64,000 bases of DNA, taken from contig NZ_JAGIOG010000001.1 of the NCBI RefSeq assembly GCF_017876595.1, positions 2,790,001 to 2,854,000 of the forward strand, in the 5' to 3' direction. Below are positions 39,865 through 59,795 of the stretch, piece by piece. Each line of letters starts with the position of its first letter. Position 1 is the first letter of the stretch. Under the pieces are notes generated by a model. That model saw nothing but the letters and a program-made list of their open reading frames with translations, was not told the DNA's origin and searched no databases. This stretch comes from Aeromicrobium fastidiosum (GTDB lineage: Bacteria > Actinomycetota > Actinomycetes > Propionibacteriales > Nocardioidaceae). The position numbers and the translations under genes are program-made.

Positions 39865-42783
39865 ATGACAGAGACGGTCAGCGGATCCACCGGATCCCCA
39901 CGCAAGTCGGCCAAGGCCAAGGCCGGAGCCGGCCTCAAGATCGAGCGTGTCTACACGACCGAGGGCGTCCACCCCTATGACGCCGTCACGTGGGAGCGCC
40001 GCGACGTCGTCCAGACCAACTGGAAGACCGGCGAGACCGTCTTCGAGCAGCGCGGCGTCGAGTACCCCGACTTCTGGAGCGTCAACGCCTCCACGATCGT
40101 GACGACCAAGTACTTCCGCGGTGCCGTCGGCTCGCCCGAGCGTGAGCAGAGCCTCAAGCAGCTGCTCGACCGCGTCGTCCTCACCTACACGCAGGCCGGT
40201 CGCGACAACGGCTACTTCTCCTCCGAGGAGCAGGCCACGATCTTCGAGCACGAGCTGACGCACATGCTCCTGCACCAGGTCTTCAGCTTCAACAGCCCCG
40301 TGTGGTTCAACGTCGGCACGTCGAGCCCCCAGCAGGTCAGCGCCTGCTTCATCCTGGCCGTCGACGACTCGATGGACTCGATCCTCAACTGGTACAAGGA
40401 GGAGGGCCTGATCTTCAAGGGCGGCTCCGGTGCCGGCCTCAACCTGTCCCGCATCCGTTCGTCCAAGGAGCTGCTCCGCTCCTCGGGCGGCACGGCGTCC
40501 GGTCCGGTCTCCTTCATGCGCGGTGCCGATGCCTCGGCCGGCACGATCAAGTCGGGCGGCGCGACGCGTCGTGCGGCCAAGATGGTCGTCCTCGACGTCG
40601 ACCACCCCGACATCCAGGAGTTCGTCGAGACCAAGGCCAAGGAAGAGGACAAGATCCGCGTCCTCCGCGACGCCGGCTACGACATGGACCTCGGCGGTGC
40701 CGACATCACCTCGGTGCAGTACCAGAACGCCAACAACTCGATCCGCGTCAACGACGAGTTCATGCGCGCGGTCGAGGACGGCAAGGAGTTCGGCCTGCGC
40801 GCCCGCACCAACGGCGAGATCATCGAGACCGTCGACGCGGTCAAGCTGTGGGACGACATCGCCAAGGCCGCCTGGGCCTGCGCCGATCCCGGCATCCAGT
40901 ACGACGGCACGATCAACGACTGGCACACCTCGCCCGAGGCCGGACGCATCACGGCGTCCAACCCGTGCTCGGAGTACATGCACCTCGACAACTCGAGCTG
41001 CAACCTCGCATCGCTCAACCTGCTGAAGTTCCTCAAGGACGACGGCTCGTTCGACACCGCGACGTTCGTCAAGGCCGTCGAGTTCATCATCACCGCGATG
41101 GACATCAGCATCTGCTTCGCCGACTTCCCGACCGAGGCGATCGGCGACACCACGCGCGCCTACCGTCAGCTCGGCATCGGCTTCGCCAACCTCGGCGCGC
41201 TGCTCATGGCGTCGGGCCTGGCGTACGACTCCGACGGCGGCCGCGCCCTCGCCGGGTCGATCACCTCGCTGATGACCGGCACGTCCTACCGCCGCTCGGC
41301 CGAGATCGCCGGCGTCGTCGGCCCGTACGACGGCTTCGCGCAGAACGCCTCGGCGCACGAGCGCGTCATGCGCAAGCACCAGGCCGCCAACGACGAGATC
41401 CGCACGCTGCACTCGATGGACATCGACGTGCACCGTGAGGCCGCCAAGCAGTGGGCCGAGAACCTCACGATCGGCTCCAAGAACGGCTGGCGCAACAGCC
41501 AGGCGTCCGTCCTGGCCCCGACCGGCACGATCGGCTTCATGATGGACTGCGACACGACGGGCATCGAGCCCGACTTCTCGCTCGTCAAGTTCAAGAAGCT
41601 CGTCGGTGGCGGCTCGATGCAGATCGTCAACCAGACGATCCCCGCGGCGCTGCAGAAGCTCAAGTACAACGTCGAGACCATCGAGGCCATCGTCGAGTAC
41701 ATCGCCGAGAACGGTCACGTCGTCGACGCGCCCGGTCTCAAGACCGAGCACTACGAGATCTTCGACACCGCCATGGGCAAGCGCTCGATCAAGCCCATGG
41801 GCCACGTGCTGATGATGGCCGCCTGCCAGCCGTTCCTGTCCGGTGCCATCTCCAAGACGGTCAACCTGCCCGAGACGGCCACGGTCGAAGAGATCAAGGA
41901 CGTCTACTTCCAGGGCTGGAAGCTCGGCCTCAAGGCGCTCGCGGTCTACCGCGACAATTGCAAGGTCGGCCAGCCGCTCTCGGACGGCAAGGAGGCCAAG
42001 TCGTCCGGCTCGACCGAGGTCAAGGAGGTCGTGCGCGAGGTCATCGTCGAGAAGCCGATCCGTCGTCGTCTCCCGAAGTCGCGCCAGGCCATCACGACGT
42101 CGTTCTCCGTCGGCGGCGCCGAGGGCTACATGACCTCGGGCGCCCACGAGGACGGCTCGCTCGGCGAGATCTTCATGAAGCTGGGCAAGCAGGGCTCGAC
42201 CCTGGCCGGCATGATGGACGCCTTCTCGATCGCCATCAGCATCTCGCTGCAGTACGGCGTGCCGCTGGAGACCTTCGTGCAGAAGTTCACCAACATGAAG
42301 TTCGAGCCCGCCGGTCTGACCGACGACCCGGACGTCCGCATGAGCCAGTCGATCATGGACTACACGTTCCGTCGCCTGGCCCTGGACTACCTGGACTTCG
42401 ACACGCGTTCGGCTCTCGGCATCCACTCGTCCGAGGAGCGCCAGCGCTTCCTCGACACGGGCTCCTACGAGGCACCCGTCGGCAACGGCACCACCGCCGC
42501 CGAGCTCGTCGAGACCTCGCCGGCTGAGCCTGTCGAAGCCTCGAACTCCAAGGTCACCGAGTCCGCCTCGGCGATCGAGTCCCCGTCGGTGTCGGGCGAC
42601 AGCCACGAGGCAGCCGCCTCGAAGCCCGCCCCGGCCACCGCCCACACGAGCGCCGAGCTCTTCGAGCAGATCACCGGATCCGCCGTCGACTCCCCGCTCT
42701 GCATGACCTGCGGAACCAAGATGCGCCCCGCCGGCTCCTGCCACGTGTGCGAGGGCTGCGGAAGCACCAGCGGCTGCAGCTGA
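39865..42783 (+). CDS. nrdJ: NrdJ, adenosylcobalamin-dependent (class II) ribonucleotide reductase
   Basis: It reduces ribonucleotides to deoxyribonucleotides using a B12-derived thiyl radical, with no need for oxygen. Length is 972 aa. The barrel contains substrate-binding and active-site Cys/Asn/Glu motifs: VSACFILAVDDSMDSIL, NPCSEYMHLDNSSCNLASLNL and QASVLAPTGTIGFMMDCDTTGIEPDFS. The C-terminal redox-active tail is a Cys-rich zinc-ribbon-like CMTCGTKMRPAGSCHVCEGCG. Between barrel and tail is a ~90-aa Ser/Ala/Glu-rich linker that contains an inverted copy of the 15-bp interspersed element (42524-42538, encoding AEPVEA). The element at 42802 begins 18 bp after the stop. Confidence 0.97.
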   Translation: MTETVSGSTGSPRKSAKAKAGAGLKIERVYTTEGVHPYDAVTWERRDVVQTNWKTGETVFEQRGVEYPDFWSVNASTIVTTKYFRGAVGSPEREQSLKQLLDRVVLTYTQAGRDNGYFSSEEQATIFEHELTHMLLHQVFSFNSPVWFNVGTSSPQQVSACFILAVDDSMDSILNWYKEEGLIFKGGSGAGLNLSRIRSSKELLRSSGGTASGPVSFMRGADASAGTIKSGGATRRAAKMVVLDVDHPDIQEFVETKAKEEDKIRVLRDAGYDMDLGGADITSVQYQNANNSIRVNDEFMRAVEDGKEFGLRARTNGEIIETVDAVKLWDDIAKAAWACADPGIQYDGTINDWHTSPEAGRITASNPCSEYMHLDNSSCNLASLNLLKFLKDDGSFDTATFVKAVEFIITAMDISICFADFPTEAIGDTTRAYRQLGIGFANLGALLMASGLAYDSDGGRALAGSITSLMTGTSYRRSAEIAGVVGPYDGFAQNASAHERVMRKHQAANDEIRTLHSMDIDVHREAAKQWAENLTIGSKNGWRNSQASVLAPTGTIGFMMDCDTTGIEPDFSLVKFKKLVGGGSMQIVNQTIPAALQKLKYNVETIEAIVEYIAENGHVVDAPGLKTEHYEIFDTAMGKRSIKPMGHVLMMAACQPFLSGAISKTVNLPETATVEEIKDVYFQGWKLGLKALAVYRDNCKVGQPLSDGKEAKSSGSTEVKEVVREVIVEKPIRRRLPKSRQAITTSFSVGGAEGYMTSGAHEDGSLGEIFMKLGKQGSTLAGMMDAFSIAISISLQYGVPLETFVQKFTNMKFEPAGLTDDPDVRMSQSIMDYTFRRLALDYLDFDTRSALGIHSSEERQRFLDTGSYEAPVGNGTTAAELVETSPAEPVEASNSKVTESASAIESPSVSGDSHEAAASKPAPATAHTSAELFEQITGSAVDSPLCMTCGTKMRPAGSCHVCEGCGSTSGCS
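42524..42538 (-). repeat. Interspersed 15-bp element in the nrdJ linker
   Basis: CTGAGCCTGTCGAAG is the exact reverse complement of the copy at 16115-16129. It encodes part of a low-complexity linker, consistent with tolerance of insertion. Confidence 0.8.
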
Positions 42784-42788
42784 TCTCA

Positions 42789-42841
42789 AGTTGCGTCATT
42801 TTGTCACGAGGAGTTGCGTCAAATGTCAACGAGTTGCGTGA
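42789..42841. repeat. Left-end repeats of the transposon-like element
   Basis: AGTTGCGTCA occurs at 42789-42798 and 42812-42821, and AGTTGCGTGA at 42832-42841 (spacings 23 and 20 bp). TGTCAC at 42802-42807 precedes the second copy by 4 bp and mirrors the right end (TGTCAC-TGT-AGTTGCGTCA on the minus strand at 50175-50157). I place the outer end at 42802. The copy at 42789 then lies outside and may be a relic. Confidence 0.75.
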
Positions 42842-42856
42842 TTGACATTCACCATC

Positions 42857-43046
42857 ACTATGACGCTGAAAGTCATAGTCGAAGTGATAGCTCGATGTCG
42901 CAACCCCTCAACCCGGCCCGTGCGCTCCCTCATGGAGTGCCCGGGCCGGGCCCGTTCCTGGGTGCGGCGTACGCGGCACTCGCAGGTCGGTCGCCCACCC
43001 GGGTCGGCCGGAAAACACGAAACCCCGCCTTGCAGGGCGGGGTTCG
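42857..43046. other. Hairpin-rich interval at the left end of the element
   Basis: Three inverted repeats occupy most of the 361-bp gap between nrdJ and the small gene. ACTATGAC-N7-GTCATAGT is at 42857-42879, with outer ATCAC/GTGAT arms, and is AT-richer than its surroundings (operator-like). A 39-nt hairpin at 42912-42950 pairs CCCGGCCCG with CGGGCCGGG. At 43019-43046 AACCCCGCC pairs with GGCGGGGTT. The last two look like terminators that would insulate nrdJ from the cargo genes. Confidence 0.6.
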
Positions 43047-43098
43047 CGTGGCACGGACAGGTGGTGTCCGCATCGGTGTTCCAACCGCATCTCACCAC

Positions 43099-43139
43099 CT
43101 CTTCGTGTGCCCGAGCAAGTCGAGCACGAAGAGAGGAGG
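43099..43139 (+). promoter_or_regulatory. Leader hairpin ending at the Shine-Dalgarno of the 44-aa gene
   Basis: CTCTTCGTG (43099-43107) pairs perfectly with CACGAAGAG (43125-43133), with a 17-nt loop. The 3' arm continues into GGAGGAG, the ribosome site for ATG 43145, and CC before the 5' arm can pair with part of it. Translation of the small gene may be controlled by this stem. Confidence 0.55.
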
Positions 43140-43144
43140 AGACG

Positions 43145-43279
43145 ATGCCCAAGAACCCCAAGCAGACCGGTAGCAAGGCTGCGAAGAACGCGAGCAAGGT
43201 CATGCGCGGCAACTACAGCAAGGCCGCGAAGTCCGCGGCCGCCAGCGCCCTGGCACAGTCGCCCAAGCGCGGCAGGTGA
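43145..43279 (+). CDS. Small Lys/Ala-rich basic peptide (44 aa)
   Basis: The peptide MPKNPKQTGSKAAKNASKV continues to MRGNYSKAAKSAAASALAQ and ends PKRGR. The two SKAAK-xxA blocks form a repeat. It has no acidic residue and should be a short positively charged helix, possibly nucleic-acid binding. A strong GAGGAGGAG ribosome site at ideal distance argues that it is real. It precedes the 623-aa gene by 63 bp and is probably co-transcribed. Similar short basic proteins with a SAAASAL-type motif occur in mobile loci, as far as I recall, but no function is established. Confidence 0.65.
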   Translation: MPKNPKQTGSKAAKNASKVMRGNYSKAAKSAAASALAQSPKRGR

Positions 43280-43342
43280 GGCAGCGGCCCGTCCGGCATC
43301 GCCGGGCGGGCCGTCCTCGGTCACCACTAGGAAGGACAACCC

Positions 43343-45214
43343 ATGACCACGCCGCCTCCGGACCTCCGCCACGCCATCTCCAGCCTGACGCACGCCGTCT
43401 CCAGCCAGGACCCGACCGACCGCACCTACCTCAAGGTCGTTCGTCCAGGTGACGAGTTCGCGTACGGGACAGTCGCACCAGCTATCAACGACGGGTGGGC
43501 CTTGGACACGTGCGGGATGTGGTTGCCGCGAGGAACTGCCAAGCCGCGCGGGCCCATCGAACGCGCCTACGTCTTCATCACTCCCGAGGAGTTGTTCGGT
43601 TTCACCCTGTCGTTCGCGCAGGTGCTGACCATCCTCAAGCAGGTGTCGCGGTTGAACGCGGTCACCTTCGCCGCAGCCATGCTGGCGAAGCGCGCTACTC
43701 CCGGGCTTCGGCTCCGCGGCGGCGACGTCGAGTTCATCGAGGCGTTCCTCGCCGACCCTTGGAAGACCAAGGCGCTCAACCTCATGCGTGAGCGGGACCG
43801 GGCGCTCGTCGTCCCCCAGGCGATCCATCTCCTGGCCAAGCTCGCGTTCATCGTGTGCCCGGAGGAGGCACCGGTCGAAGTTGACCAGGGCGAGGCGCTC
43901 TTGACCGTTCTGCTGCACCTGCCGGCGCACCTGGACTCTGGCGTTGAGGCGCTCGCGGAGGACGAAGACCACACCGTGACCGCCGATGCGGGGCCACTCG
44001 CGTGCTACTTCATCGCCAACCACCTGTTCAACTCGCACCTGGACGTCATGACCGCGACCGCGGTGTTCCAGCGCTGCTGGATCGAGATCCCTGCAGAAGA
44101 CGTCGAAGACCCTCGGATGCTTGACCTTCCGGCCGAGTTCGAGGATGCGACCGGGGTGCCGCTAGGCGACCTCACAGCCCTGTGCGTGATGTTGTGGGCC
44201 AGCGCCGTGAACGGCAACACCGTCCTGGAGATCTCGAGAGTCAACGCCTTCGGGTGGTCTACCGAGCGTCTCGAACGGGCACTAGACCTCATCAGCTGCG
44301 ACCCAGACCAGATGCGAACCAACATCGTCACCGCTGAGCACAGGTACGGGTTGCTGTGGACCACCCGCAACTTCGCGTATCACCCGGTCATCCGGTGGGG
44401 GAGCCACGTCACCGTGCTCGACCCTGAACTCCTGCTGCGTAGGGCCACCGGGCTGTGGCCGCTCATGGACATCCAACGCGCCCTTGAGGACGGGCCCCAA
44501 CGAGACCGCGACCGCGCGAGCCAGGTCAGCGCGGCGGCGCACCGGGCTCATGAGAAGTTCGCGCTGGAGACTCTGAGGGATGTCGCCGGCAAGAGCCGGC
44601 TCTACGACGAGGACGCGCTCGTCGCGGCATACGGACGCAAGTCCAAGGTCGCCGACATGGCAGTGGACTACGGGCACTCGTGGGTCGCCATCGAGGTGAC
44701 TACCACCGGGTTCCAGGACCTGACCGCCGCCGGCACCAGCCCCGAAGCGGTGACACAGGACCTGAACAAGGCCGTCCGCAAGGCCAAGCAACTTCACGCC
44801 ACCATCGACAACCTGCGACGCGACACCAACCGGCTGACCAAGGACGGCCGTAGCAACACGGTCCGCACCTTCTATCCGGTCCTGGTCGTCACCACGAGGT
44901 TCCCCGCCTCGCCGATCACGATGACGATGCTGTGGGAACGTCTGCGCGAGGAGGATCTCCTTCAGGGTGACGACGTCGCTCCGTTGGAGGTGATGGAGCT
45001 GGAAGACCTGTGCGCTACCGAGGGTGCCGTCGAAGTCGGGCACAGCCTGATGGCGCTGCTGGACGAGAAGAGGACCTCCCCGATGCAGCGCATGTCGATG
45101 CGGGACTTCCTGCAGGACAAGCTGCGCGGCATCGTGCGACAGCCAAAACGGGTGCAGGACAGGTGGCAGAAGGTGTTCGATCCCGTCATCGACGCCGTCC
45201 GCGACGCCGCCTGA
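43343..45214 (+). CDS. 623-aa unknown protein with possible degenerate PD-(D/E)xK core
   Basis: The large soluble protein has a helical N-terminal half (Asp/Glu-rich, no signal peptide or membrane segment). Near residues 430-455 a nuclease-like strand pair reads ADMAVDYGHSWVAIEVTTTG: an acidic residue (Asp438 or Asp442) followed by a hydrophobic strand ending in Glu451-x-Thr453. That has the geometry of PD-(D/E)xK nucleases but lacks the usual Lys. A coiled/charged helix (LNKAVRKAKQLHATIDNLRRDTNRL) follows. The ATG at 43343 has AGGAAGGA upstream. It converges with the XRE gene. It could be the element's endonuclease-like partner or defensive cargo; not resolved. Confidence 0.7.
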   Translation: MTTPPPDLRHAISSLTHAVSSQDPTDRTYLKVVRPGDEFAYGTVAPAINDGWALDTCGMWLPRGTAKPRGPIERAYVFITPEELFGFTLSFAQVLTILKQVSRLNAVTFAAAMLAKRATPGLRLRGGDVEFIEAFLADPWKTKALNLMRERDRALVVPQAIHLLAKLAFIVCPEEAPVEVDQGEALLTVLLHLPAHLDSGVEALAEDEDHTVTADAGPLACYFIANHLFNSHLDVMTATAVFQRCWIEIPAEDVEDPRMLDLPAEFEDATGVPLGDLTALCVMLWASAVNGNTVLEISRVNAFGWSTERLERALDLISCDPDQMRTNIVTAEHRYGLLWTTRNFAYHPVIRWGSHVTVLDPELLLRRATGLWPLMDIQRALEDGPQRDRDRASQVSAAAHRAHEKFALETLRDVAGKSRLYDEDALVAAYGRKSKVADMAVDYGHSWVAIEVTTTGFQDLTAAGTSPEAVTQDLNKAVRKAKQLHATIDNLRRDTNRLTKDGRSNTVRTFYPVLVVTTRFPASPITMTMLWERLREEDLLQGDDVAPLEVMELEDLCATEGAVEVGHSLMALLDEKRTSPMQRMSMRDFLQDKLRGIVRQPKRVQDRWQKVFDPVIDAVRDAA

Positions 45215-45315
45215 GGTCAGCGGTCGGGTTCGCTACGGTGACACTCAACATCCCGCGGCACTAGCGCGTCCCGGTCGTCCGAGTGCTTCTACCGCCCGCG
45301 GGCCGGTCTGCGTCA

Positions 45316-46053
45316 CTACCGCTCGGCATCGTCCAGAGGATGCTGGCGCGACGTCGTAAGCAAGAGCGAGTAGGAGACGTCCTCAGCGAGTTCGAGACCA
45401 CCGCCGGACGTGGTCTCGACGATGCCCGCGTTCAGCAGCGCTCCCTTGGTGACCCTGTCGACGTTGCTGGTCGACTTCAACCGCTTGCCGCGGGCGGTCC
45501 GAGACACCAGGTTGGCCTGGCTGATGTCCAGCTGGACGCGGCCCAGGTGACGGCGGGTCAGGTCCTTCAGGGCCTCTACTGGGGCAGCGCGGAACGCTGG
45601 GACCAGCTGGACTGTCCCATCAGTGGTCCGGACCTCGAGGCCCGCGACGGCGACTGTGGCGGCCAGCTCGGTCAGGGCGCCGGCCAGGGTCTCCAGGTCG
45701 GTGCCGAGGGCAGTTGCGAGTGCGTCAACGGGCGCGGGTGAGTCCAGCGCACGCAGCGTTGCTCCGACCTGACGCAGGAGCTCGCTGCCCTCGGACGAGG
45801 CTGGGGTGGCTGAGTGACCTTCGACGACAAGGAGCGCGTCGGAGGACAGCTCTAGGACCTTCGCGAGACGCCGTACGTCACCCAGGGTCAGGTCGGAGCT
45901 GGTGTTGCCGGACTCGATGCTGCGGACCATGGACGTGGAGAACGCCTCGCCCAGGTGTGCGGCGAACGTCCGTTCGGACCAGCCCAGCTCGAGCCGACGC
46001 GCCCGAACGAGGCCGCCGTCGATGGTGGGGTCGGTGGCCAGGTAAGCGCTCAT
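45316..46053 (-). CDS. XRE-family DNA-binding protein, last gene of the transposition operon (245 aa)
   Basis: An N-terminal Cro/CI helix-turn-helix spans residues ~15-70 (VRARRLELGWSERTFAAHLGEAFSTSMVRSIESGNTSSDLTLGDVRRLAKVLELS). The C-terminal ~150 residues look like one or two winged-helix-type segments (LLRQVGATLRALDSPAPVDALATALG ... EALKDLTRRHLGRVQLD). The ATG at 46053 overlaps the stop of the 424-aa gene (ATGA). It may regulate the element's promoters, for instance through the palindrome at 42857-42879, or assist target choice. Confidence 0.8.
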   Translation of the reverse strand: MSAYLATDPTIDGGLVRARRLELGWSERTFAAHLGEAFSTSMVRSIESGNTSSDLTLGDVRRLAKVLELSSDALLVVEGHSATPASSEGSELLRQVGATLRALDSPAPVDALATALGTDLETLAGALTELAATVAVAGLEVRTTDGTVQLVPAFRAAPVEALKDLTRRHLGRVQLDISQANLVSRTARGKRLKSTSNVDRVTKGALLNAGIVETTSGGGLELAEDVSYSLLLTTSRQHPLDDAER

Positions 46054-47321
46054 GTCAGTTCCCTGATGCTCAAGCCCCACCGGGTCAGCCACCGGCTACC
46101 CGAGGCGAGGTCGCGCTCCTTGTACGACGCGGCCACAGCCACTCCTGCTTCGCGGCGTGCTTCGGTCAGGAAGCGCGCCAGGCGCTGGTCGGTCTTGTTC
46201 TGGTTCTGGCCCTCGAAGAACACGTCATCCGGCCCGGCGCCCTCATTCGTGCGGAGGTGGTGCTGTGCGCGTACGAAGGGTCGGGCCGGCTCGAAGATGT
46301 CGTAGACGCCGGCCTCGGTGCGGACGGTCGACCCGTCGGCTGCGACGTCACCAACGAGCACGATGGCCGTGTGCCCGAGGGGCACGCCGGCGGCTGCGAA
46401 CGCGCAGGCCGCACCCCGGGCTGGGTCGGCGTACGCCCGCAACCGTCGCCAGGCGTGCGGGCGTCGCAGCGCGTCGTGCGGCATGGTCTGCGCTGTCCCG
46501 ACGAGGCGGTCCAGCTCGACGCGCAGGTGGAGCTGGGACGCGAACAGTCCGACCTGTGCGGCACGGACCACGACGACGAACTGGGTGACGGTCTCGACCT
46601 CGCGCCATCGGGCATGGAACCAGTCGGCCATGGCCTGTTCACGGGCGACGGTGTCCCGTGGCAGGGTCTTGGCTACGTCTGCGGCGGCACGGGCGTGACG
46701 GACGAAGAACTCGTCGACCACCTCCAACACCGGTGGTGCCAGCAGGTCTCGGCACGCGGCGCGGAACGTCGTGAAGTCATCGCTGGGAACGTGCTCGGGC
46801 CAGTTCACGACCGGTACGACGTCTTCGATGGGGTCGGGCTCTGTGAGCGCGGTCTTGAACGTGTCGAGGAACTGCGACGCGTCGACGACGTCCGCTGGCG
46901 GGAGCTGGTGGTTGCGGCAGAAGTCGTCGACGGTGTCCTGGACGGTTGTGCGGTAGCCGGTGTCTCCGACGAGCCAGACGTGCCAGCCCGCCGAGATGGT
47001 TGTTGTCAGGAGCTCGGTGATGACAGGCAGGGGGAGCAGGAACGCGTTCTGGACGTACAGGTCGTCGATGTCGTACGCCCGGGCCCAGGCCACGACGCGG
47101 GTCAGCTGCCCTTCGCCGGGGCGGCCGTTGCCGGCCAGTCCGTCTTGGACGCCGAACGAGGTGAGGATGTCGGTGGCCAGTGTGCTCATCCGGCGGGTGT
47201 CCGGGCGAGCCCACACCCCGACTCGAGACTGGGTGAGGTTGGTGAACGTTGACGCGTGGACGTCGCGGGTGCTGGAGTCGTGGTCGTTGACGACGTGGAC
47301 CCGGCTGGGGGCGGCGCTCAT
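46050..47321 (-). CDS. Unknown 424-aa protein between TniB-like ATPase and XRE gene
   Basis: I do not recognise this family. The protein is soluble, rich in Asp/Val/Ala/Thr, with a plausible alpha/beta N-terminal half (VVAWARAYDIDDLYVQNAFLLPLPVITELLTTTISAGWHVWLVGDTGYRTT) and a helical C-terminal half with a conserved-looking RLARFLTEARREAGVAVAASYKERDLASG. There is no Cys-based zinc finger, which argues against TniQ. The ATG at 47321 overlaps the ATPase stop (ATGA) and its own stop overlaps the XRE start, so it is a fixed part of the operon. A target-selection role in place of TniQ is speculative. Confidence 0.75.
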   Translation of the reverse strand: MSAAPSRVHVVNDHDSSTRDVHASTFTNLTQSRVGVWARPDTRRMSTLATDILTSFGVQDGLAGNGRPGEGQLTRVVAWARAYDIDDLYVQNAFLLPLPVITELLTTTISAGWHVWLVGDTGYRTTVQDTVDDFCRNHQLPPADVVDASQFLDTFKTALTEPDPIEDVVPVVNWPEHVPSDDFTTFRAACRDLLAPPVLEVVDEFFVRHARAAADVAKTLPRDTVAREQAMADWFHARWREVETVTQFVVVVRAAQVGLFASQLHLRVELDRLVGTAQTMPHDALRRPHAWRRLRAYADPARGAACAFAAAGVPLGHTAIVLVGDVAADGSTVRTEAGVYDIFEPARPFVRAQHHLRTNEGAGPDDVFFEGQNQNKTDQRLARFLTEARREAGVAVAASYKERDLASGSRWLTRWGLSIRELT

Positions 47322-48067
47322 CCTTGGACCATGGCCAGGGCGGCGGACAGGTGCTTGGGTGTGACCTCCGTGCCTGCTGGCAGCTGTTTCATGAGGTCCA
47401 GGAGCGCGGACAGCAGCTGTCCCCACCGGCGCCAGTTGCCGTACCCGTAGGTGGAGTCCAGCTGCAGCAGGAACTTGGGCTCGATGGTCTCCATGAGGGG
47501 GTGCCAGGCGCGGATGGCCCTCAGAAGCGCCTCGTCCTCCAAGGGTGCGAACTGGATACGGGCGGACACCCGGCTACCGAGTTCGGGGGCCCGGTTCATC
47601 GCCTCGTCGACGGTCGACCCGACCAGCACGAGAGCCCACGACGCACGGCCCATGTCGTGCAGGTATCTGACCTGTTGCAGCGACGCCTGGCGCAGGTTCT
47701 GGGCTTCGTCGATGACCACGATGCGCCCGGTCAGCTCGGGGACGAGCTGGTCGGTGAGCTCGAACTGGGAGTCCCGTGTGCGGTGGGGGACACCGATGGC
47801 CGACAACAGCCTGACGGTGACCTCCTTGGGGGCCGGGGCGGGAGGCATGTCGAGCCAGTGGACAGGCCGGCCGCCCGGGACGCGGTGCCGGTCCAGGAAC
47901 TGGTCGACGGTGAACGTCTTGCCGTTGCCGGGTGCCCCGTGGACGACGGCGATGCCGTTGCGGTCGATGGCCGATGCCAGGTTCAGCTCGGCGAACGCCG
48001 TGGTCTTGGTGCGCACGACGTTGGCGTCGTCCAGTCCGGGCAGGTGGCGCGGTCCTTGGGCGCTCAC
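47318..48067 (-). CDS. TniB/TnsC-like AAA+ transposition ATPase (249 aa)
   Basis: Walker A is GAPGNGKT (residues 44-51) and Walker B VVIDEAQNL, with the sensor-type SxxDE region VLVGSTVDEAMNRAPELGSRVSARIQFAPL and a C-terminal helix (YGYGNWRRWGQLLSALLDLM). These features match small helper ATPases such as TniB/TnsC/MuB/IstB, which oligomerise on target DNA and activate the transposase. The GTG at 48067 overlaps the transposase stop (GTGA). Confidence 0.88.
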   Translation of the reverse strand: MSAQGPRHLPGLDDANVVRTKTTAFAELNLASAIDRNGIAVVHGAPGNGKTFTVDQFLDRHRVPGGRPVHWLDMPPAPAPKEVTVRLLSAIGVPHRTRDSQFELTDQLVPELTGRIVVIDEAQNLRQASLQQVRYLHDMGRASWALVLVGSTVDEAMNRAPELGSRVSARIQFAPLEDEALLRAIRAWHPLMETIEPKFLLQLDSTYGYGNWRRWGQLLSALLDLMKQLPAGTEVTPKHLSAALAMVQG

Positions 48068-49554
48068 AGGTCATCGTCCCCGAGGAGGTCGGTCAGGGCG
48101 TCGGACTCAGCGAAGATGCCAGTCGCGCCGGCCGCGTCGTACGGCGGCCTGCTCGGCGTGGGCGTTGCCGTCTTCGTGGCCGGCGGCGCTGTGGCAGCGT
48201 TGATGACGGCCGTTTGCGCTCGAACTACGGCGGCGCGTTCGTGGGCGGCCTTGATGGTCTGCCAGTCCGCGTGGCGCTGCTGGACGACGGTCCGGCGCTC
48301 GTCGGTGCCGAGCTGGCCGCTGGGCACGGCTTCGCAGATGAAGTCGTCCCCGTCGAAGACGTAGATGGTGTTGCCGTCCAGCGGGAGCAGCCTGATGTCG
48401 ACCTTGCAGCCGCGGTACTTGGCCAGCCCGGCGGCCAGGTAGCGGCGCCCCTCGAACCGGATGCCGTCCTTGCTGACGGTCCGCTTGCTCGAGGCGCGCA
48501 GCATCAGCGGGAACAGCTGCTGGGGGGCAGCCTGGGCCACGTTGGTCGCTTTGGCCTTCCACGCGGTCAGTGGCGTGCACCCGATGGCTGAGTGGACGCG
48601 TTCGGTGTTGTACTCCACGACCCAGTCCTGCATCTTCAGCACGAGCGCGGAGAACGGCAGCAGGTTGGTGTCGGCGCCTCGCCACCACTCGGTTCCCTGG
48701 AACGACCGTGGCCCGTCCGACGCACCGGGCAGGTGGGAGTACAGCTCGGTCTGGATGGTCCGATGCCAGCGCTCAATCTTTCCCTTCTGCCATGGCGAGT
48801 ACGGGGCGGCTGGGAACGGTGCGATGTTGAGCCGCAGGCATGCGGCGGTCACGGTCTGGTTGATGAACTCGGTGCCGTTGTCCCACTTGATGGTCTGTGG
48901 GATGCCGCCAACGAACGTGCCGTCGGCAGTGCGGAACCCGCGCACTGCGGCAGCAAGCGCGGCGACGGCGTCCTCACCGCCGGGAGGTCCGGGCAGCAAG
49001 ATGGTGGCCATCACCATGCGGGTGGCCTCGTCCACGAACGTGACCTGCCACGGCTTGAACGGCGCCGTCCCGTTGTCCGGGCGCACCCAGACCGGCACCT
49101 CCTGGGAGTCGGCCTGCCAACGGGTGTTGGGGCGCTCGGGCACGTCCTCGAGGTAGAGCGACATCTGTAGGTAGTCCTCGCGGCCGTTGCCTCGCAGACC
49201 GGCCGCCACAGCCGGCGCGATGTTGTCGCTGTACTGGCGCGTGAACTGCGGGTAGCTGACCGTGATGGTCTTGTCAGCGTGCAGGCGGCGCCACGCCTGC
49301 TTGAGGCTGTCGCAGCTGGCGACGGCGGCCAGCACCAGTTGTCTGGTCTGCGGGTCGCTCCACCACCCGGCACGCACCGTGTGGGTGGCTGGGCCGCCGT
49401 CGCGCATGGTCTTGAGGTGGCGGTGCACGGTACGGGTGGAGATGCCGAACCCGTCGGCAGCACGACGGACGACGTCGCCGGTGACGTTGCCTCCGCCGGC
49501 GGCGATGGCCTGGTTCAGCATCGCTGTCAGGGCCTGCCGCTCGGAGGCCCTCAT
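48064..49554 (-). CDS. TniA/TnsB-like DD35E transposase (496 aa)
   Basis: An N-terminal helix-turn-helix (DGFGISTRTVHRHLKTM) is followed by an rve-type catalytic core: Asp149 (RWQADSQEVPVW), Asp225 (TIKWDNGTEF) and Glu261 (KGKIERWHRTIQTEL), with exactly 35 residues between the last two. The C-terminal Mu-type domain includes FEGRRYLAAGLAKYRGCKVDIRLLPLDGNTIYVFDG. It should cleave and join element ends at the AGTTGCGTCA repeats. The C-terminal ~25 acidic residues (LTDLLGDDDL) may contact the ATPase, as in TnsB. The ATG at 49554 overlaps the stop of the 163-aa gene (ATGA). Confidence 0.92.
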   Translation of the reverse strand: MRASERQALTAMLNQAIAAGGGNVTGDVVRRAADGFGISTRTVHRHLKTMRDGGPATHTVRAGWWSDPQTRQLVLAAVASCDSLKQAWRRLHADKTITVSYPQFTRQYSDNIAPAVAAGLRGNGREDYLQMSLYLEDVPERPNTRWQADSQEVPVWVRPDNGTAPFKPWQVTFVDEATRMVMATILLPGPPGGEDAVAALAAAVRGFRTADGTFVGGIPQTIKWDNGTEFINQTVTAACLRLNIAPFPAAPYSPWQKGKIERWHRTIQTELYSHLPGASDGPRSFQGTEWWRGADTNLLPFSALVLKMQDWVVEYNTERVHSAIGCTPLTAWKAKATNVAQAAPQQLFPLMLRASSKRTVSKDGIRFEGRRYLAAGLAKYRGCKVDIRLLPLDGNTIYVFDGDDFICEAVPSGQLGTDERRTVVQQRHADWQTIKAAHERAAVVRAQTAVINAATAPPATKTATPTPSRPPYDAAGATGIFAESDALTDLLGDDDL

Positions 49555-50042
49555 GCCAGCTTCTCGAGAGTGGTCTTCGGCGCCTTGGGGTCAGGTGACG
49601 GTGCCCACCCGCGGGTCTTGCCGACGTAGGTGACCGACTGGTGAGGGTTGGTCAGGTCGCAGACCCGCAGCAGCGTCCCGGTGGTCAGCGGCACCGTGTC
49701 GACGCCGGGGAAGGAGCTGAGGCCGCGTCCACAGACCCGGTCGATGACGAGGTCTCCGGTGGCCGACTTCTGCCATGCGATGAGCCCGGAGCTGACGTTC
49801 GCGCCGGCCCGCTGCCAGCTGTCGTCCATGGTGAAGTGGCGGCGGTAGGTGATAGCGGCCGACGCCAGCAGCTGGAGCGAAGCGCTGGGACCTCTGCCGC
49901 GCAGGCTGCCGTGTTCAGCCATCAGGTCCTTGATGACGTCGGCCTGGAGCGTCTGCTCGGGCTGGTCGAGCAGCAGCAACCTGACGGTGAGCTGGTCCAG
50001 GGCGTTCGCGGTGGCGAACATAGGGGTCGAGTGGTCTCGCAT
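49551..50042 (-). CDS. Unknown 163-aa protein, first gene of the transposition operon
   Basis: No family is recognised. The sequence is soluble, with helical N-terminus (ANALDQLTVRLLLLDQPEQTLQADVIKDLM) and a mixed C-terminal half ending PDPKAPKTTLEKLA. It lacks obvious TnsA endonuclease residues. The ATG at 50042 is preceded by AACCAAGGACCAC. It is the promoter-proximal gene, lying between the right-end repeats (50136-50175) and the transposase, which it overlaps by 4 bp. An accessory endonuclease, end-binding or immunity role is possible but unsupported. Confidence 0.65.
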   Translation of the reverse strand: MRDHSTPMFATANALDQLTVRLLLLDQPEQTLQADVIKDLMAEHGSLRGRGPSASLQLLASAAITYRRHFTMDDSWQRAGANVSSGLIAWQKSATGDLVIDRVCGRGLSSFPGVDTVPLTTGTLLRVCDLTNPHQSVTYVGKTRGWAPSPDPKAPKTTLEKLA

Positions 50043-50135
50043 GACGTGGTCCTTGGTTGGAGCAGGTGGTGGGTGCCTGCTTGGCAGCTGATTCCATGGA
50101 CTGTGCTGCCTGCCTGCATTCCTAGCAGCGGCGTC

Positions 50136-50175
50136 TGACGCAAATGCGGACGCTAGTGACGCAACTACAGTGACA
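50136..50175. repeat. Right-end repeats of the transposon-like element
   Basis: TGACGCAAAT (50136-50145) and TGACGCAACT (50157-50166) are inverted copies of the left-end AGTTGCGTCA repeats, 21 bp apart. The outer terminus is GTGACA at 50170-50175. Read inward on the minus strand the end is TGTCAC-TGT-AGTTGCGTCA. The repeats lie upstream of the operon promoter region, so transposase binding may also repress transcription. Confidence 0.8.
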
Positions 50176-50557: not shown

Positions 50558-50773
50558 TCAGCTGCGCGTCGAGTCGAGTTCGGTGTCGTCCTCGGCGGTG
50601 TGCACGGATCGGTGCTCCCATGGGAACACCCAGCGGAACAGGCTCAGGCCGGGCTTGCGGCACCAGCAGTCCGTGGCGCAGCCGCAGCGCATTGCGCCGA
50701 GGTGCTCCGCGAGCCTGTTGCCGGCTGCGATGAGGACGTAGGCGCCGACCAGGACAAGAACCGCGCGTCTCAC
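50558..50773 (-). CDS. Small Cys-rich membrane protein of metal island (71 aa)
   Basis: One N-terminal helix (RRAVLVLVGAYVLIAAGNRLAEH) is followed by MRCGCATDCWCRKPGLSLFRWVFPWEHR, a CxCxxxCxC motif suited to binding soft metal ions. Its ATG at 50773 overlaps the stop of the gene at 50770 by 4 bp. This small type of protein is familiar to me beside copper/metal genes in actinobacteria, but I know no demonstrated function. Confidence 0.7.
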   Translation of the reverse strand: MRRAVLVLVGAYVLIAAGNRLAEHLGAMRCGCATDCWCRKPGLSLFRWVFPWEHRSVHTAEDDTELDSTRS

Positions 50774-51069
50774 GGCAGGGCCGCGATCAGCTGGTCGGTG
50801 GTGGGTGAGCCACTGAGCCCTGTCGGCGTGGTGTAGACCCGGCAGGCGAGCCCCACCTGCTCGGTACCGGACGCGAACGGGTCGATGCCGTCGATGCGGA
50901 TGGTTGGAGACCCCAGGAACCCGGTCGCCTCTGCCTCCTCGACGGTCTCGACCCGGCGACGCTCCACGGTGGCGTTTTGGTGATCAGCGGCCCGAAGTGC
51001 CTCGGACAGTCGCCCGTCGGCGACCGTCCAGTTCGGGCATCCATCGAAGTACAACAGCTCAACACGCAT
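50770..51069 (-). CDS. Thioredoxin-like YFDGCPNW protein (99 aa)
   Basis: The protein begins MRVELLYFDGCPNWTVADGRL; the single active-site-like Cys in DGCPNW and the GFLGSPTIRIDG cis-Pro loop are typical of small thioredoxin-fold proteins found with mercury, arsenic and copper genes. It may shuttle metal or redox equivalents. It is the upstream member of a coupled pair with the gene at 50558. Ribosome site AAGGAGC precedes the start at 51069. Confidence 0.8.
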   Translation of the reverse strand: MRVELLYFDGCPNWTVADGRLSEALRAADHQNATVERRRVETVEEAEATGFLGSPTIRIDGIDPFASGTEQVGLACRVYTTPTGLSGSPTTDQLIAALP

Positions 51070-51113
51070 CGGATGCTCCTTGTGGCCGGCAGGGTTCGCT
51101 TCCTACTGTGCCA

Positions 51114-51129
51114 CCGCCGTCACCGGCGG
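51114..51129 (-). terminator. Short hairpin between DUF4396 operon and thioredoxin-like gene
   Basis: CCGCCG-TCAC-CGGCGG forms a 6-bp GC stem with a 4-nt loop in the 154-bp gap (51070-51223); it probably ends the four-gene operon above. Confidence 0.5.
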
Positions 51130-51223
51130 ACGACCCGATCGGCGCGGTCCGCAGCGCCGGGGCCGCGACCTTGCCGGGTGCAGGCTCGGTGCGGCCCCTT
51201 CGCGTGCGCGCTCGTTGTGGTGT

Positions 51224-51895
51224 CTACCGCGTGCTGGCTGTTGTGGCGGCACCGTTGCGGCGTGCCAGGGCCGCGGCGACTGGGTAGCCGGTTGCCAGGC
51301 CGAGCACGATGCCGATCTGCATGAGGAACCAGAACGACCCTTCCGAGGCGGGGGGCATGTACTCGTTGAAGTGCAGCAGCAGCATCCATCCGGCCATGCC
51401 GATGTCGAACGCCAGCACGGTCAGCACCGCTGCGCCTGCTGCGGCGCCGACGCTCAACCCTGTCGCGGCGGTTCGCTCGAACGTGAACAGCAGCACGATG
51501 GCCAGTGCGCCGATGACCAGCAGCATGACCCACAGGTCGATGCCGGCGATGGTCAGGCCTGAGGCCAGGACCAGGGGCACTCCGATGAGGTGTGCGACGG
51601 CGCTGGCCGCTCCGCCGGGCAGGCTGACGCTCGCCGCCGACGCTGCGGAGTCGCGGTTGACGTGGCCGGTGCGGGCAGGGGCTCGACCGGTCTTGGTGTA
51701 CAGCCACAGTGCTGCGGGTCCGAGGTAGAGCCCAGAGCAGACCCAGACGACCTCGGCGGCGACGGTGCGGTGCCGGCGCCTTAGGCCGTAGATGTCGATG
51801 GCGATGAGGGCGGCGCTGAGCACCGCAAGGGCGATGAACGCCCAGGCGATCGGCGTGAGCCAGTCCGGGACGTTGTTGGTCATGTTCATGTCCAT
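51224..51895 (-). CDS. DUF4396-like membrane protein (223 aa)
   Basis: About six hydrophobic helices are visible; WLTPIAWAFIALAVLSAALIAIDIYGLRRRHRTVAAEVVWVCSGLYLGPAALWLYTKTGR matches the start of DUF4396 proteins. A His near the third helix (ASAVAHLIGVP) replaces the HCxxGC signature seen in the relative at 55997. The start at 51895 gives MDMNMTNN, Met-rich like copper-binding segments. It is the last of four overlapping genes. It could move or buffer copper; not demonstrated. Confidence 0.8.
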   Translation of the reverse strand: MDMNMTNNVPDWLTPIAWAFIALAVLSAALIAIDIYGLRRRHRTVAAEVVWVCSGLYLGPAALWLYTKTGRAPARTGHVNRDSAASAASVSLPGGAASAVAHLIGVPLVLASGLTIAGIDLWVMLLVIGALAIVLLFTFERTAATGLSVGAAAGAAVLTVLAFDIGMAGWMLLLHFNEYMPPASEGSFWFLMQIGIVLGLATGYPVAAALARRNGAATTASTR

Positions 51896-53085
51896 CAGGG
51901 TTCCTTCGGTTGAGGTTTCGCGGGGTTGGTGACTGTCGGGATGGGGTGTGCTTGGTTCTGCGCTCGACCCCACAGCTCGTGCGGGACGTCGCACGCCCAC
52001 ACCGGTGGCGACGTCTGTCCCTCTGGGGCGAACCCGACGGCGGCGGCTGCGACCTGCTCGACTGAGCCAGGCCGGACGCTCCATGCCAGGCGCCGTGCGC
52101 CTGTAGTGTCCGCGACATCCAGCAGCGTCTGGGCTACTCGCTGTGCGCCGTCTAGGTTCTTGAGGTCGGTCCAGACCTCAAGGGTCGAGGTCCCGTGGTC
52201 GTGCCGTATGTCCGCCACTCCGGCAGGCGAGCCGTCGTCCATGGTGACCGTCCCGAAGCCGTCGTGGGGTAGACGCACCCCGTGGTCGTGCGCGTGTGGA
52301 AGCTGCGCCGACGGTGTTGTGGAGCGGCGCAGGACCCGGCGACCGCGTCGAACGGCCACTCGCGCGCACGGCAACATCATCAGGGCGCATGAACGGAGCG
52401 TCGTCGCCCATGACCGGCCTGTCACTTGTCGCGCGAGGTCGGGAGCAGCCTCCGCCGGTGTGGTGCGAGGGAGCCACCAGATGTCGTGGTCGGTCGGGAC
52501 GCCGTCGTACGGGCGAAGTTGCCTGGTGGTCGCGCGTCGGGTGAAGCCGAGCTCGGTCAGCATCCGCCCCGGCCCCGTGTTGGTGACTGCCACGGGCGCG
52601 ACGACGCCGCGGACGGCGGCCGGTAGCCCGACCACGCGAGTCAGGGCGGTGCGCCACGCCCACGCGCGTGCTGGTGCTGATGTGTTCGCGGACAACCAGA
52701 TCGACAGCTCGGCAACACCGGTGCGGGGGTCGACGGCAAACGAGATCTCGCCCAGGACATCACCGCCACCGTTGGCCAGGACGAGAGGGACCAGCCGCCC
52801 GGCGCGTGCCGCGGCCCGTTGAGCAGTGACCTTGTCCGCCCACGAGGTCAGCGAAACGGACTTCTCCCAGTCCACGTCCGCGGCCCCGATCGACGGCTTG
52901 AGCCGATCGGCTTCGCGCAGACACGTGTGGCGCCAACCTGGGCCGTCCAGAAGCTGTGGCGGCCGCAAGACGAGATCGTGGTTTCCGAAGCGTCCTGTCG
53001 TGTGGACGGAGGCCGCTCGTGTGGACGCTGAGTCCAGGGTGAAGTCTTTCGGGCCCGAGGACCCGGGGTGCGTGTCGTGGGTCAT
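51895..53085 (-). CDS. Tandem GNAT-like acetyltransferase-domain protein (396 aa)
   Basis: The N-terminal half resembles a RimJ-type GNAT (LVPLVLANGGGDVLGEISFAVDPRTGVAELSIWLSANTSAPARAWAWRTALTRVV, then VTNTGPGRMLTELGFTRR). The C-terminal half appears to be a second, degenerate GNAT-like domain (SPAGVADIRHDHGTSTLEVWTDLKNLDGAQRVAQTLLDVADTTGARR). The ATG at 53085 overlaps the DUF3152 stop (ATGA); 53091 is an alternative. Its presence inside a metal-linked operon is unexplained. Confidence 0.65.
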   Translation of the reverse strand: MTHDTHPGSSGPKDFTLDSASTRAASVHTTGRFGNHDLVLRPPQLLDGPGWRHTCLREADRLKPSIGAADVDWEKSVSLTSWADKVTAQRAAARAGRLVPLVLANGGGDVLGEISFAVDPRTGVAELSIWLSANTSAPARAWAWRTALTRVVGLPAAVRGVVAPVAVTNTGPGRMLTELGFTRRATTRQLRPYDGVPTDHDIWWLPRTTPAEAAPDLARQVTGRSWATTLRSCALMMLPCARVAVRRGRRVLRRSTTPSAQLPHAHDHGVRLPHDGFGTVTMDDGSPAGVADIRHDHGTSTLEVWTDLKNLDGAQRVAQTLLDVADTTGARRLAWSVRPGSVEQVAAAAVGFAPEGQTSPPVWACDVPHELWGRAQNQAHPIPTVTNPAKPQPKEP

Positions 53086-53849
53086 GGCCATGGGTTCGCC
53101 GCGCAGCCGTCGAGGCCCAGGGTCTGCTGGAGCATGACCGGTGCCTTGGCGCCAGGCGCAGGGCATGGTTGGTGGTTGAACCCGAGGGCGTGTCCGACCT
53201 CGTGGTTGATGACGTACTGGCGGTACTTGCCCAGGTTGTCGTAGGAGTCGACGCCTTGGACCCACCGTTTGGCGTTGATGACCACGTCGTTGCCGTTGCG
53301 GCACGACACTTCGCCTCGGGTGCGCAGCGGCGCGCACAGGCGATCGGTCGTCGCCGGGCTGGCCAGCACCACACGCAATGCCGCGTCTGGGGTGCGGCGG
53401 AACGAGCGTGTGCCGGTGGCGGTCCAGCCCCGTCGGTCACCCAAGGTGGCGTCGACGGCGCGGGTGAACCGGCTGAGCTTCAGTCCAAGTCCGTCCTCAA
53501 CTTCCACCCGGTACGTGATGACGGTGCCGGCCTGACCCAAGCGGTCACTTGTGCTCTTGGCCGTGGTGAACGTGCCGTCGGCTGCCTTGGGGACGGTCGT
53601 GGGGTCAGGGGCTGGCGTTGGTCTCGCCGTGGCTGGCTCTGGCGCCGTGGTGGCAGGTGTTGCGGGGGCTGGTGGTGTGCTGAGGGTGGGGGCGATCCGG
53701 GCGGCGGGGTCAGGACGTGGCGGTGCTGTTTGACCTGCGACGCCGGCGGCCACCAGCAACGTCGCCGCAGCGAGCGCGGCCACGGCTACCGACAGCCGCC
53801 GAACCGTCAGCTCACTCTTGGTCGGGTGGCGTCGCCGAGCGCCGCTCAC
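53082..53849 (-). CDS. DUF3152 secreted metalloprotease-like protein (255 aa)
   Basis: A signal anchor (RRLSVAVAALAAATLLVAAGVAG) is followed by a ~50-residue Pro/Thr/Ala linker, then the DUF3152 domain with the zinc-binding HEVGHALGFNH (His216-x3-His220) and four Cys for disulfides (CAPL, SCRN, PCPAP, DGCAA). It looks like an exported metallopeptidase of the matrixin-like type. The GTG at 53849 overlaps the upstream stop (GTGA). It lies in the four-gene operon starting at 54664. Confidence 0.85.
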   Translation of the reverse strand: MSGARRRHPTKSELTVRRLSVAVAALAAATLLVAAGVAGQTAPPRPDPAARIAPTLSTPPAPATPATTAPEPATARPTPAPDPTTVPKAADGTFTTAKSTSDRLGQAGTVITYRVEVEDGLGLKLSRFTRAVDATLGDRRGWTATGTRSFRRTPDAALRVVLASPATTDRLCAPLRTRGEVSCRNGNDVVINAKRWVQGVDSYDNLGKYRQYVINHEVGHALGFNHQPCPAPGAKAPVMLQQTLGLDGCAANPWP

Positions 53850-54664
53850 AGCATGGTCTTCCAGGTGGCCCCGTCGTCGGTGCTCTCGTAGATGCCGGTC
53901 GTGGTGGCGGCGTACCAGGCGTCGTCGTTGGCGGTCAGCGCTTGCGGTTGCCCGGGCAGCTCGCCGCGACCCTTCCAGGTCTGACCGTCCTCCGAGGACC
54001 ACACCAGCCCGGTCGGCGAGATCCCGGCCAGCGTGGTGTCGCCGTCGATGTAGACCAGCGGCGGCGCGGTGCTGACTCGTTCGGTCTGACTGCCGGTGGT
54101 CTGCCTCAGCGTGTAGTTGGCGCCGGTGACCAGGACGCTGTCGTCTGGGCCGATTGCCACGTCAATGGCTGGCAGCTCTGCCAGCGGGGTGAACGTGCGT
54201 CCGTTGTCGGTGGACTCGACAACGGTCTGAGTGACCGCGTCGTAGGCCACGACTCTGGTTCCGGTGGTGTCGATGGCGTGCAGGTCGGCCTGCCCGGTCA
54301 GGCTGATCGGGTCGAGGGTGCGGCCGGCGTCGGTACTGGTGACCAGCCCCATCGGGTTGGTCGCGTCGGCTGTCGCAGGGTGTCCGCTGGCGGCGAACTG
54401 GTCGGGACCGGTGACGGTGAAGCCCATCAGGTCGTGCGGGGCCTGTTCGACCCGTTGGGGCACGCCGTCGTCCAGGGTGAACAGGCCGTCGTGGGTCGCG
54501 ATCCACAGATCGCCGGTTGTTGGGTTGGGGCCGAGGCCGTGGACGTGCCCGAACGCAAGAGCGGTCGGGGCGTCTTGGGCTGGCTGCGAGCAGGCAGCCA
54601 GCAAGGTGAGCATCAGGGTCAGCGCTGTCGCGCCGACCCGAGCGGGAAGGTGTGTGTGATTCAT
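53846..54664 (-). CDS. F510_1955-type BNR-repeat lipoprotein (272 aa)
   Basis: A lipobox (LMLTLLAACSQ at residues ~16-26) is followed by a beta-propeller with Asp-box-like repeats (STDAGRTLDP, STDNGRTFTP, SSEDGQTWKG, STDDGATWKT). Automated annotation calls these glycosyl hydrolases or sialidases, but the family often co-occurs with DUF305 and copper genes, and no catalytic residues are obvious. An outer-surface binding or sensing role is likelier. It is the first gene of the coupled operon. Confidence 0.85.
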   Translation of the reverse strand: MNHTHLPARVGATALTLMLTLLAACSQPAQDAPTALAFGHVHGLGPNPTTGDLWIATHDGLFTLDDGVPQRVEQAPHDLMGFTVTGPDQFAASGHPATADATNPMGLVTSTDAGRTLDPISLTGQADLHAIDTTGTRVVAYDAVTQTVVESTDNGRTFTPLAELPAIDVAIGPDDSVLVTGANYTLRQTTGSQTERVSTAPPLVYIDGDTTLAGISPTGLVWSSEDGQTWKGRGELPGQPQALTANDDAWYAATTTGIYESTDDGATWKTML

Positions 54665-54681
54665 GGCGTCGTCGACCGTCC

Positions 54682-54719
54682 GGCCCGCGCCAGCCCTCTT
54701 GCAAGGGCTGGAGCGGGCC
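54682..54719 (-). terminator. Hairpin between DUF305 gene and BNR lipoprotein operon
   Basis: GGCCCGC (54682-54688) pairs with GCGGGCC (54713-54719), and CCAGCCCT with AGGGCTGG inside. This long stem in a 68-bp gap could terminate or attenuate readthrough from DUF305. Confidence 0.65.
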
Positions 54720-54732
54720 AGGTGCTCGGCTC

Positions 54733-55314: not shown

Positions 55315-55393
55315 GAGCTGTTCTCCTTGGGGTCTGCTTGACAGGGGTCGCTTGAACGGCGTGAACCCGCAGGATCACGCCGAAGGCTGCCTG

Positions 55394-55855: not shown

Positions 55856-55943
55856 CAGCCTCATCCTACGGACCCGCGCCCCGACCGGCCCGACAGAACG
55901 AGAACAGACCAGCGTGGTCTCGAACACTCGCCACCAGAGACCT

Positions 55944-55960
55944 ATACCCCCCGGGGGTAT
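55944..55960. promoter_or_regulatory. CsoR-like copper operator
   Basis: ATACCCCCCGGGGGTAT is a perfect palindrome of the ATACCCCNNNGGGGTAT type recognised by CsoR-family copper repressors. It lies between the divergent genes at 55855 and 55997. No csoR gene is in the window, so the repressor would be encoded elsewhere. Confidence 0.8.
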
Positions 55961-55996
55961 GCTTGAGTGACCAGACAAAGGGCTCAGGAGGACGCG

Positions 55997-56683: not shown

Positions 56684-56754
56684 ACCACCAAGGCGTCCGC
56701 CCGTCGGCGCCTTGACCTTACCCGGAGCTCACCAGACTGCGCTATCATCGCCGC

Positions 56755-58747: not shown

Positions 58748-58773
58748 CCAACACCCCAGGAACGAGACGACCG

Positions 58774-59433: not shown

Positions 59434-59554
59434 GACGAGCGCGAGCCTTCTTCAAGGCCGCGTCCCCTCCTCGGCGCACCGTTCCTGCCCAGACGTGAGG
59501 TGCGTCAACTGCTGCCCCCTGGATCCGCGAGCGGTACGGGAGCACACTGGAGGC

Positions 59555-59749: not shown

Positions 59750-59795
59750 GTCCGGCCACCACGGCTCTGTCGGTGGCGGGAGCCACGATGGGACG

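Follow-up and report, generated by a model that had tools for sequence, protein, structure and literature searches.

How does a transposon with TnsB- and TnsC-type proteins come to lie at a fixed chromosomal site if no TniQ/TnsD-type target selector is found with it? This question is raised by a stretch of 64,000 nucleotides from Aeromicrobium fastidiosum (contig NZ_JAGIOG010000001.1, positions 2,790,001 to 2,854,000), here called the window, to which all coordinates refer unless another locus is named. In the window, an operon of five genes (N, A, B, C, and D, with A and B encoding the TnsB- and TnsC-type proteins) lies behind nrdJ, the gene for a vitamin B12-dependent ribonucleotide reductase (39865 to 42783, plus strand; NCBIfam NF005122, 1572.9 bits against a cut-off of 859). 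An initial annotation, made from the letters of the window, had proposed a TniA/TniB-type transposon of 7.4 kb directly behind nrdJ, with inverted repeats at 42802 and 50175 as its ends. Our data support the type and the place of the transposon, but its ends probably have to be moved. We propose, with a probability of about 0.6, that a Tn7-like transposon of ~22.5 kb has inserted at the stop codon of nrdJ and that its protein C, perhaps together with D, would replace TniQ/TnsD as the target selector.

RESULTS

A family of elements attaches at nrdJ

The operon adjoins nrdJ in 4 of the 20 loci fetched for comparison (L046-L065), those of genomes G250, G274, G143, and G227, with its D side nearest to nrdJ and in the orientation seen in the window; the A and C proteins of these four are 23 to 33% identical to those of the window. 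The closest relative, found through its A protein (9e-100), is locus L202 of Pedococcus bigeumensis, and this operon, too, lies behind nrdJ. The six elements, window included, thus share the gene, the side, the orientation, and the proximity of D to nrdJ. In all six, a repeat array starts no more than 60 bp behind the nrdJ stop codon (at base 6 to 20 in five of them and at base 59 in G274) and is followed by a terminator. The repeat units read AGTTGCG in the window and L202 and AATGTCC, CGACAAGTGCC, GCGACTGTxTGCC, and TCTCGCGGATTGGCAG in the other elements, and repeats that differ between elements are expected of transposase sites, not of host sequence. Eight relatives of the same genus have a hairpin terminator behind nrdJ and, by eye, no such array.

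The far ends of three relatives define the insertion more closely. The G227 element is 22,532 bp long, and its two tips mirror each other (TGCCGA). Next to the right tip stands GCTGA, with which nrdJ itself ends, and then a terminator; the flank past this end aligns with the DNA downstream of nrdJ in G230, G199, and G225 at 70 to 78% identity. In L202, the right tip is reached at 19,469 bp, again followed by GCTGA and a terminator. In G250, GCTGA stands at 22,049 bp, and straight after it the left end recurs, identical over ~35 bases; therefore, two elements are arranged in tandem at one site. A 5-bp duplication (GCTGA) that includes the nrdJ stop codon is present at both ends in these three relatives, and the likeness of their left and right ends was reached by 0 of 500 shuffles in G250, 6 of 500 in G227, and 7 of 1000 in L202. 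In sum, nrdJ serves a whole family of elements as their attachment site, and the location of the window operon behind this gene is meaningful.

A generic test for 6-mer repeats was positive behind nrdJ in 6 of 62 cases and in 20 of 186 control stretches. Since there was no enrichment over the control, we make no claim on how frequently nrdJ is occupied. Left-end-like arrays were also seen just behind the nrdJ stop codon in L249 (G170) and L251 (G655); a transposase operon was not recognised within 20 kb of these arrays, which are possibly solo ends or non-autonomous elements. At L054 (G181)/L271, the nrdJ stop codon is followed by part of a repeat array, and the operon is found ~20 kb away from nrdJ and oriented the other way round.

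Boundaries of the element in the window

The left end (42784 to 42850, plus strand) consists of three tandem units, AGTTGCG...TGTCA, starting at 42789, 42812, and 42832, and L202 carries three units of identical type behind nrdJ. Both repeats reported in the initial annotation are exact and inverted: TGTCAC-N4-AGTTGCGTCA is found at 42802-42821 on the plus strand and TGTCAC-N3-AGTTGCGTCA at 50157-50175 on the minus strand, with a chance expectation of ~0.5 matches for each repeat at up to three mismatches. Additional sites are AGTTGCGTCA at 42789, AGTTGCGTGA at 42832, and ATTTGCGTCA at 50136. The window has eight single-mismatch sites, a number that was equalled in 5 of 100 shuffles; it is their clustering, not their count, that is remarkable. 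One extra repeat unit lies outside the proposed tip at 42802, as also in L202. Because the comparison with the relatives at nrdJ places the tip at the base after the nrdJ stop codon, and 42802 falls within the array, the left tip is taken as 42784, 18 bp outside 42802. A terminator-like hairpin within the left end (42912 to 42950, plus strand; inverted repeat I1) shares 88% identity with the terminator behind nrdJ in L069 (51 bp aligned). The idea that the left end is merely a short piece of DNA inserted upstream of the terminator that belongs to nrdJ was rejected, as the other nrdJ elements also show the array and then a terminator. Directly after the array, a nested palindrome, ATCACTATGAC...GTCATAG...AGTGAT, was noted at 42854-42888.

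For the right end, an inverted-repeat scan and shared k-mers were uninformative. GCTGA followed by a strong hairpin has a single occurrence in the 31 kb searched rightward, at 65325, which is 1.3 kb past the window; the screen is imperfect, as it recovered the end of G227 but missed those of L202 and G250 and gave one extra match each in G227 and G274. The tip at 65324 agrees with the right tip of L202 in 12 of 20 bases, the best value among 67 GCTGA sites tested, and the window is consistent with a GCTGA duplication at 65325. The site pair that had been taken for the right end (50136 to 50175, minus strand) is of the transposase type and is located at the divergent promoter of N and a second helix-turn-helix gene, XRE2 (P0007; 50195 to 50521, plus strand; HTH_31, 2.6e-10; 43% identity over 93 amino acids to L202). 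XRE2 starts 20 bp past 50175, and the XRE gene at the same place in L202 sits inside the single element found there. Furthermore, GCTGA is not present after 50175, where the flank reads AGAGAGCTAG. For these two reasons, the region from 42784 to ~65324 is most likely one site-specific Tn7-like transposon of ~22.5 kb, a size better supported than 7.4 kb, and, if so, the pair at 50136-50175 is probably an internal site. The repeats of the left end are conserved in a related copy, with three units alike in L202, but those of the proposed right end are not; L202 has no site pair at the matching position.

The transposition operon

The five genes are encoded on the minus strand in the order N (49551 to 50042), A (48064 to 49554), B (47318 to 48067), C (46050 to 47321), and D (45316 to 46053) and are joined by four-base overlaps (ATGA, GTGA, ATGA, and ATGA). 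Protein A is a DD35E transposase of the TnsB/TniA type. It contains rve (7.1e-12) and Mu-transpos_C (2.3e-15) domains, it matches TnsB from solved transposon complexes (1.4e-12), and the residues D149, D225, and E261 named in the initial annotation are invariant across 12 aligned transposases. Protein B, translated from a GTG start, is the AAA+ helper noted in the initial annotation and is of the TnsC/TniB type (TniB PF05621, 7e-12; TnsC in the PDB, 9e-4). Both proteins match PHROG transposition families, A at 3.8e-63 and B at 1.5e-21 (family 296), and the match of B to TnsC models is moderate and weaker than that to family 296.

The two proteins of the coupled operon described as unknown, N and C, indeed have no family above cut-off: in four family libraries, N gave no match and C only a sub-threshold match to CHAP, and no Pfam family exceeded the cut-off for C. 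Protein D is an XRE helix-turn-helix protein (HTH_3, 1e-6). It was aligned with nine relatives, and in all ten loci, window included, it is encoded in the same locus as C; D is the constant partner of C in the aligned loci. The two are proteins new to transposition. In line with the initial annotation, which had stated that TniQ is absent from this copy, no TniQ over the cut-off was found in 39 genomes, this one included, or in ten other genomes that carry the operon, in searches that had no positive control. Sub-threshold TniQ matches were seen in G667 and in a stretch of G250 that contains five stop codons and is ~400 kb away from the element. There was no resolvase among seven scanned proteins of the window, the remainder of the 22.5 kb having been scanned only in part.

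In seven relatives, the protein encoded just before A has an invariant G-E..G-G..D..W..DE-KT..Q pattern that, by eye, resembles a PD-(D/E)xK nuclease and, thus, TnsA; the set has no Pfam match. The motif is present neither in the window copy nor in L202, where small proteins take its place. These two N proteins show a weak relationship (pairwise BLASTP, 2e-5; phmmer, 0.03), and N of the window matches the TnsA-like set weakly (E 0.004, probability 8%); N may be a decayed TnsA. According to the available part of PMC8649781, TnsA is uncommon in one Tn7-like clade, and therefore, its absence does not exclude an element from the Tn7-like group. In L048 (G274), a gene pair resembling an IS3-type insertion sequence (by eye) was seen at ~13157-14430, just upstream of A, where the TnsA-like gene is expected.

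Ancestry of protein C

To trace C, its alignments (A5 and the smaller A1) were compared with a profile of tyrosine recombinases built from 22 sequences of the fetched loci. With one setting, the C-terminal part of C (A5) matched this profile over 275 columns (E 4.4e-6, probability 72%); in the same comparison, the smaller alignment gave a probability of 9%, and unrelated profiles gave E values of 0.3 to 0.9. With another setting, the score was 36.4 over 226 columns (probability 25%), compared to 14.9 or less in 60 column shuffles and 12.8 for the reversed profile. The catalytic half of tyrosine recombinases carries the HxxR...Y motif. The 226-column alignment ends before this half and, by eye, C has not retained the first of the catalytic arginines either, so the recombinase region of C should be inactive.

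A second match concerns residues 40-122 of C, which align with the Walker B/sensor 1 area of the B family (score 38.7, probability 70%, 78 columns; 60 shuffles, 12.9 or less). The Walker A part is outside the match (by eye). Furthermore, Pfam AAA_22 is matched by 9 of 26 C proteins, at best with 7.9e-7. The profiles suggest that C is a TnsC-like fragment without Walker A joined to an inactive tyrosine recombinase. Solved structures searched by sequence with the C and TnsA-like profiles gave nothing convincing. C forms a conserved family with a recognisable ancestry.

Distribution of the family and further attachment genes

Among 294 genomes sampled from the taxonomic family of the window, 14 had a match to C, and A, B, and C were found together in ten of these 14, window included. 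Matches in G100, G106, and G167 were dropped because they did not align with the C family, and G189, with weak matches to A, B, and C, was excluded from the counts. In the class sample, the C profile matched in 10 of 394 genomes, eight of them at ~1e-13 or better; the window was counted in both samples, and the weak class matches G381 and G400 were excluded. When named genomes were scanned, 76 transposase loci were obtained, and C is encoded in 26 of them (three appear to duplicate loci of the class sample), in Nocardiopsis, Streptomyces, Actinomadura, Pseudonocardia, Actinoplanes, Pedococcus, and others. No C was matched in 50,697 phage records, none in 35 viral loci carrying relatives of A, and one, partially, in 72,556 plasmid records. 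A search with P0004 alone found no close relatives in IMG/VR or GTDB contigs.

nrdJ is not the only gene in question. Arrays lie close behind dnaB in G135 and G046 and close behind a gene resembling that of an aggregation-promoting factor in G269. The ten operons of the family sample are accordingly distributed over nrdJ (five), dnaB (two), and this third gene (one), and two operons (G075 and G181) have no assigned site. Among the 26 named loci, only L202 has nrdJ within its flanks.

Cargo

Between the left end and the operon, the window encodes P0006 (43343 to 45214, plus strand), which resembles GapS1 weakly (NCBIfam NF047931, E 6.2e-10, 38.5 bits, far below the cut-off of 320). The rest of the proposed element in the window, from 50558 to 64000 and continuing to 65324, gave matches to CopM/DUF305, a DF family, DUF4396, Cation_efflux, ArsR, PIN, and MazE. 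The cargo, therefore, comprises the weakly GapS1-like gene, metal-related genes, and a MazE-like/PIN pair. A small lysine-rich open reading frame (ORF) of 44 amino acids, noted at 43145-43279, separates the left end from the GapS1-like gene; a longer ORF overlapping it has no Pfam match. Relatives carry defence genes: in G227 (L129/L053), a type IIG restriction enzyme and the complete Wadjet set of JetA, JetB, JetC, and JetD lie 6.4-20.9 kb behind nrdJ, and in L202, a CBASS-type cyclase (whose frame also matches an E2 model) and an SduA-like gene are located between nrdJ and the operon (13254-16969 of that locus). Cargo of this kind is in keeping with a Tn7-like lifestyle.

DISCUSSION

In our model, A would bind the repeat arrays and join the 3' ends of the element to the target DNA, and B would connect A with the target complex. 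The recombinase-derived region of C is proposed to read the 3' end of nrdJ, perhaps aided by D, and the TnsC-like fragment of C may dock on B, by which TniQ/TnsD would not be needed. Cut-and-paste movement is probable for those relatives in which the TnsA-like nuclease is intact; the window copy, which is without the TnsA-like motif, may, if active, copy itself instead. Taken further, the model describes a Tn7-like branch without TniQ, in which a chimera of a TnsC-like fragment and a dead recombinase reads the stop-codon end of a gene (nrdJ, dnaB, or another) and docks directly on TnsC; for this wider proposal, we consider the odds to be even.

Several observations weigh against a single element of 22.5 kb with C as its selector. 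The end at 65324 is unlike the left end of the window (190 of 1000 shuffles were as good), its local alignment with the right end of L202 was equalled by 160 of 1000 shuffles, and a stricter tip test missed it, whereas the site pair at 50136-50175 is similar to the left end (equalled by 0 of 1000 shuffles and, in another test, by 0 of 500). Right ends of G143 and G274 were not found within ~29 kb. The hhalign probabilities for C are moderate (72, 60, and 9% in one run, 25% in another, and 70% against B), and the TniQ searches were without a positive control because 14 control genomes also gave no match. The contrast between the two candidate right ends would be expected if a 7.4-kb element ending at 50175 stood in tandem at nrdJ with the remnant of a second element ending at 65324, and the second left end straight after GCTGA in G250 is a precedent for such an arrangement. 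However, the lack of GCTGA after 50175 and the position of XRE2, only 20 bp beyond and inside a single element in L202, which has no such pair there, make a tandem in the window unlikely, and one element of ~22.5 kb is the reading that we retain.

Within this single element, the attachment site could be recognised by D, with C merely bridging or regulating. D has the clear DNA-binding domain, its gene has a four-base overlap with that of C, and ten loci were aligned in which the two occur together. However, XRE proteins are commonly regulators. Moreover, the recombinase-like region of C is better suited to a site-reading role like that of TnsF (as described in the available part of PMC10293859), and recognition by D therefore appears doubtful to us. 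Descent from Mu-type phage transposition modules rather than from Tn7 is suggested by the PHROG families, which B matches better than TniB, and a MuB clade with a gene adjoining MuB is described in the available part of PMC10293859. Yet C was not found in 50,697 phage records or in the 35 viral loci with relatives of A, and site-specific insertion, the 5-bp duplication, the TnsA-like nuclease of the relatives, and an examined cargo of defence or metal genes are further arguments for Tn7; a Mu-type origin is, in our view, very improbable.

If the Tn7-like model with C as the selector is true, TnsC can be recruited by another route than TniQ, and the role of TniQ for TnsC becomes directly testable. 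It would also provide orientation-controlled insertion sites in actinobacteria. In the open-access literature, we found no description of nrdJ or dnaB as sites, of a TniQ-free selector, or of a transposon of this kind behind nrdJ.

Tn5053/Tn402 elements have the gene set TniA, TniB, TniQ, and TniR. The element of the window has the TniA/TniB-type pair in common with them and differs in its fixed chromosomal site, in the additional proteins C and D, and in that no TniQ was found. With Mu-like phage modules, it shares A and B, as far as the matches to PHROG transposition families are concerned, but C was not found in phages and the insertion is site-specific. The likeness to Tn7 and Tn7-like elements comprises the TnsB and TnsC types, a clear array of transposase sites at the left end (in relatives such as G250, at both ends), the 5-bp duplication, insertion in one orientation just past a conserved gene, at its 3' end, and defence cargo in the relatives; the window element differs in that no TniQ/TnsD was found, C and D being present instead, and in that it is without the TnsA-like motif.

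According to the available part of PMC10293859, TniQ/TnsD is found throughout the Tn7 branch. In that of PMC8649781, tnsD is given for 73-97% of the elements per Tn7-like clade, and thus, elements without a recognised TniQ have been counted before, without an explanation in that text; the same text states that an actinobacteria-dominated Tn7-like clade has no experimentally characterised member. A parallel to the proposed role of C is TnsF of Tn6022, a selector that descends from an inactive tyrosine recombinase and acts with TniQ at comM (available part of PMC10293859). The two would have this origin in common, as judged from a sequence profile for C and from the description alone for TnsF. 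They differ in that TnsF has zinc fingers, TniQ as its partner, and comM as its site, whereas C has a TnsC-like fragment, is encoded where no TniQ was found, and is associated with nrdJ, dnaB, or another gene.

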